In this document: piece after piece, positions 63,734 through 64,000 of the stretch
Layout of the letters: each line of letters starts with the position of its first letter
How positions within the stretch are numbered: position 1 is the stretch's first letter
Origin: Dromaius novaehollandiae
Lineage: Eukaryota > Chordata > Aves > Casuariiformes > Dromaiidae
Reading direction: 5' to 3'
Length of the DNA stretch: 64,000 bases
NCBI RefSeq assembly: GCF_036370855.1
Contig: NC_088111.1
Span: 18,883,501-18,947,500 of the forward strand
Notes under the pieces: generated by a model
Told to the model about the DNA's origin: nothing
The model's database searches: none
Seen by the model: the letters and a program-made list of their open reading frames with translations, nothing else
Translations under genes and position numbers: made by a program

Positions 63734-64000
63734 TCACAGCAGGCCCAGGTGCTCGGCCTCCAGCCCCGGGCGGCCCGGCTCCGGCGGCAGCTCCCGCCCG
63801 GCGCCCGGCAGCTCTGGCGCCGGCTCCGCCGTCCAGTTGGCCAGGAGGTCGCTGAAGTCGGGGGTGCTGGGGTGCAGCGCGGGGCCGGGGCCTGGCTCCC
63901 TCCAGAAGGATTGTGGCAGCTTCCTCTTGTGCATGGGGGTGATGTGGGCGTACTTCCTCTCCAGCCGCTGCGTCTTGCCGTCCGCCGCCGGGGGCTGGAG
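63734..64000 (-). CDS. FAM181-like protein with TEAD-binding omega loop, C-terminal part
   Basis: An 88-residue C-terminal piece, cut by the window edge and ending EAEHLGLL. Its striking segment [15 protein letters not shown] (63893-63937) matches the YAP omega loop that binds TEAD transcription factors (PMRLRKLPDSFFKPP). It matches the FAM181A form with tryptophan even more closely (RKRQLPASFWEEP, from memory). Downstream is a short helix-like [14 protein letters not shown]181B has an FFELL-type segment at a comparable place. A minus-strand AATAAA follows. FAM181A and FAM181B are the two known family members and, as I recall, sit elsewhere in vertebrate genomes, so this could be a third member or another TEAD ligand. 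The conserved N-terminal HRKYLQKQ signature of FAM181 is not in view, so family membership is tentative. Confidence 0.55.

Follow-up and report, generated by a model that had tools for sequence, protein, structure and literature searches.

PERCC1 has been described as a member of the YAP/TAZ/FAM181 family that occurs in vertebrates and other animals and carries two TEAD interfaces, namely interface 2 (LxxLF) and interface 3 (PxxxRxLPxSFFxxP) (PMC9710580). That paper places a conserved region at residues 173-222 of human PERCC1, in which Ser216 is conserved, describes a conserved C-terminal region, reports (in 2022) that AlphaFold models of the TEAD motifs fail to superimpose on YAP, and cites Oz-Levi et al. 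2019 for orthologues across diverse vertebrates; a word search of its main text found no bird named. In human, exon 1 of PERCC1 is non-coding and exon 2 is coding (PMC10182134), and according to a review that takes up the TEAD proposal again, the gene is located at 16p13.3 and found in enteroendocrine cells (PMC10182130). Congenital diarrhoea results from human deletions of a PERCC1 regulatory element or from a nonsense change in the gene (PMC10182134, PMC7298854), and the regulatory region is also treated in PMC7826262. TEAD binding of PERCC1 is given as a prediction in PMC9710580 and PMC10182130, and among the literature naming percc1 none of the titles announces a study of binding. The human locus is printed as PERCC1-CCDC154-CLCN7 in a 2025 preprint (PMC12668151), and CCDC154, CLCN7, GNPTG, PERCC1, UNKL and C16orf91 are listed together as partners of one lncRNA in PMC9386162.

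The window analysed here is a stretch of 64,000 nucleotides of Dromaius novaehollandiae, and all positions refer to its full length unless given otherwise. At its right end, a minus-strand frame that closes with the stop codon at 63736-63734 reaches the edge still open, and the in-window end of the coding exon (63734..64000, minus strand) comprises the 88 final codons and the stop. For extension, the region C14:18946501-18975500 was taken, 28 kb of which lie beyond the window. The ATG was found at L002:1543 (64543 in window-style numbering), 543 bases past the window edge, giving a full coding sequence of 269 codons in one exon from 64543 down to 63734 on the minus strand (L002:1543-734); the stop-to-stop frame around 63734-64000 on this strand measures 397 aa. 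The minus-strand terminal exon with a 15-residue peptide that formed the core of the original prediction was thus confirmed, as a single coding exon whose frame remains open to the edge. Proline and glutamate make up 29.4% of the 269-residue protein, and an unbroken acidic run covers residues 37-60 (24 residues). Searched against its own genome at E <= 0.001, the whole protein matched only its own place and no paralogue (55 of 55 candidates scored).

The peptide had been likened to the omega loop of YAP and FAM181, and this likeness was borne out by the HMM comparison: Pfam PF15238 (TEADIR3), a 16-position model of the omega loop, gave the 397-aa frame 34.7 bits by hmmscan, above its cut-off of 26, and matched the peptide with an E of 3.3e-6 across the genome of 1.47 Gb, a value that makes the motif strong evidence beyond chance. 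The 15 residues (203-217; 63893..63937, minus strand), which we designate TEAD interface 3 from this above cut-off match, the consensus and their position, have a single genomic match at E <= 0.001 (both of the two candidates scored), namely C14:18947393-18947437, corresponding to window 63893-63937. They satisfy the published consensus PxxxRxLPxSFFxxP except that W replaces the second F (PxxxRxLPxSFWxxP), and Ser212 occupies the consensus place of YAP Ser94 and human PERCC1 Ser216 (human numbering as given in PMC9710580). LAELF, which starts at residue 170 and is the protein's sole LxxLF, represents interface 2. A candidate for the conserved C-terminal region was placed, by position, at the 12 residues 228-239 (63827..63862, minus strand). 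When the entire 397-aa frame was compared with the PDB, 23 sequences came back at E values of up to 10; matches to the acidic run ranked first (0.049 upward), and the FAM181A peptide appeared at E 0.2.

Further upstream, on the strand of the gene, lie a TATAAATA box (TATA box) at L002:2430, a donor GAGGTGAGT at about L002:2347 and an acceptor ...CTCGCCCACAG at about L002:1571. The TATA box and donor could form a predicted non-coding exon 1 that splices from about L002:2347 to about L002:1571. By analogy with the published human exon 1, this short exon would start below the TATA box at L002:2430. The pairing of TATAAAW with AGGTRAGT 25-125 bases further on was found only once, upstream of the coding exon, in 186,000 strand-bases (the window plus L002-L004, with 1 kb overlap). 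Directly upstream of the predicted TATA box, an AT-rich patch stands out from the GC-rich DNA (L002:2431-2830; 65431-65830 in window-style numbering), and GC falls to 0.44 at L002:2601-2800. Counts of seven motifs in this patch gave no clear enrichment, the best being FOXA, for which 138 of 2000 shuffles were as good. It is possible that the patch is the counterpart of the human intestine-critical region.

Long open frames are common in this part of the genome. Over 3048 bases of this GC-rich stretch, ten of them reach 200 aa, the PERCC1-like frame included, which makes open length alone weak evidence for a gene, and the many frames that stay open would suit a non-functional relic or a chance frame that happens to contain an omega-loop-like peptide. 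We regard this reading as extremely unlikely, given the motif E of 3.3e-6 in the genome, the LxxLF upstream of the omega loop, as in YAP1 and FAM181B, and the intact start, stop and polyadenylation-signal-like AATAAA hexamer (63546..63551, minus strand, about 180 bases past the stop), together with the plausible TATA box and donor. The GC content at the three codon positions of the frame (0.79/0.52/0.93) speaks against chance as well; it is of coding type and resembles that of many coding frames from GC-rich genes. The segment 63734-64000 forms the terminal part of a genuine gene.

The neighbour on the left of this gene was identified as CLCN7. An exon piece at 60581..60736 (plus strand) matched, by phmmer, 7jm6, named Chloride channel protein (2.9e-28), and 7bxu, named H(+)/Cl(-) exchange transporter 7 (3.9e-25). 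Since the surrounding frame (60311-61219) had no Pfam match at 0.01, the CLCN7 label depends on these phmmer matches. The frame read as the CLCN7 end stops at 61219, and 2.5 kb separate it from the stop of the PERCC1-like gene, the two genes being convergent, tail to tail. A Pfam family search of the whole genome gave no match for CCDC154, the gene that separates PERCC1 from CLCN7 in human and that this genome may lack; the controls of that search gave no matches either.

Taken with the position beside CLCN7, the architecture and the motifs lead us to assign 63734-64000, with high confidence, to the 3' part of PERCC1. Human PERCC1 likewise lies beside CLCN7, has its coding part in one exon (exon 1 being only predicted here) and is rich in proline and glutamate. 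Interfaces 2 and 3 stand at nearly equal residue numbers in the two proteins (170 and 203-217 here, against a conserved human region of 173-222), and Ser212 matches human Ser216. Because PERCC1 has been published as a relative of YAP/TAZ/FAM181 and is printed beside CLCN7 in human, the novelty originally claimed falls away, and the suggestion of a locus lost or unannotated in mammals finds no support, given the printed human order (PMC12668151). In our reading the gene is already known, under a name other than FAM181, and is neither new nor lost. This PERCC1-like gene does not open a new family.

Across the genome, PF15238 matched at least four places, a lower bound as 150 of the 270 first-look candidates were scored. 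The three further places are presumably FAM181A (L006), FAM181B (L007) and YAP1 (L008), the latter two labels being based on family features; the omega loop of L006 is identical to the FAM181A peptide of PDB 6l9f over the 16 residues displayed. Among the 150 of 270 candidates that were scored, no match was read as TAZ/WWTR1, and some family members may therefore have escaped the search. Interface 3 is common to FAM181A, FAM181B and the PERCC1-like protein, and YAP1 shares both interfaces 2 and 3 with the latter, but the distance from the LxxLF start to interface 3 is 20 residues in YAP1 of this genome and 33 in the PERCC1-like protein. At E <= 1, Pfam showed no WW domain of the YAP/TAZ kind in the 397-aa frame.

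These sequences bear on the original proposal that a third FAM181-type TEAD ligand resides beside CLCN7. An omega-loop gene in addition to FAM181A and FAM181B is indeed present, and it does neighbour CLCN7, but membership in FAM181 was not supported. The N-terminal HRKYLQKQ block, to be looked for on extending the sequence to the right, was found in L006 and L007 and is absent from the extended frame of the PERCC1-like protein, which by that test is not a FAM181 gene. A third FAM181 paralogue ("FAM181C") that differs from PERCC1 and has been lost or left unannotated in mammals would nonetheless account for the SFW of interface 3, which FAM181A shares whereas SFF stands in the FAM181B and YAP1 of this genome, and for the weak match of the peptide to the FAM181A peptide of 6l9f (E 0.029). 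It would also agree with an N-terminal helix window, chosen by eye, which scored against the FAM181A N-terminal block at a level reached by 14 of 1000 shuffles (80 of 1000 against FAM181B), a resemblance that is only suggestive. A conserved N-terminal helix in common with FAM181 also counts as a PERCC1 trait. Once interface 3 was removed, the long stretch compared at chance level, with 259 of 1000 shuffles scoring as high against FAM181A and 615 of 1000 against FAM181B. The LxxLF is present in the PERCC1-like protein and lacking in FAM181A of this genome (L006), although FAM181B (at 140) has one too, as does YAP1 (at 64); the LxxLF-containing stretch before interface 3 aligned to FAM181B no better than chance, with 920 of 1000 shuffles as good and the top local match falling elsewhere than on the motif. 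Moreover, the spot beside CLCN7 is that of PERCC1 in human (PMC12668151), no second PERCC1 candidate was seen among the PF15238 matches (150 of 270 candidates scored), and the name FAM181C was not found in the literature searched, which fits a gene already known under another name. We therefore rejected a third FAM181 gene as the main reading, for want of the HRKYLQKQ block and with a place that fits PERCC1, and consider it highly unlikely. That a FAM181-type gene distinct from PERCC1 moved beside CLCN7 in this lineage and PERCC1 itself was lost appears improbable in the extreme.

As PERCC1, the protein may well act like FAM181 on TEAD, to which it is predicted to bind from its motifs. It would be mostly disordered, with interfaces 2 and 3 laid on the YAP-binding face of TEADs, where it might compete with or substitute for YAP/TAZ. 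The 24-residue acidic run and the Pro/Glu-rich arms would act on transcription, co-regulating TEAD targets, and by analogy with human and mouse PERCC1 the site of action would be rare endocrine cells of the stomach and gut (PMC10182130). Loss of PERCC1 leads to congenital diarrhoea (PMC10182134, PMC10182130), and its TEAD binding is a computational proposal in the literature consulted; an intact bird copy that has kept both TEAD interfaces lends modest added support to the TEAD mechanism.

On the side away from CLCN7, the PERCC1-like gene is flanked by LUC7-type exons, with one piece at L003:3863-4105 (plus strand; Pfam score 23, below the cut-off of 33) and another at L003:5339-5740 (plus strand; 73.7, above the cut-off). 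The first piece gave only one, unrelated, match in the PDB (0.0041). This side differs from human, where we take the neighbours of PERCC1 to be C16orf91/UNKL, and the likeness to the human locus is thus shared on the CLCN7 side only. The CCSMST1 family, which we assume to be C16orf91/UQCC4, was ruled out as the far-side neighbour, its single genome match lying far away at C14:148 kb. In the literature searched, nothing was found that links CLCN7, LUC7L and chicken together. Further along, at L003:6744-7103 (plus strand), a reverse-transcriptase fragment was detected (RVT_1, 39 bits), which we read as part of a LINE-type element.
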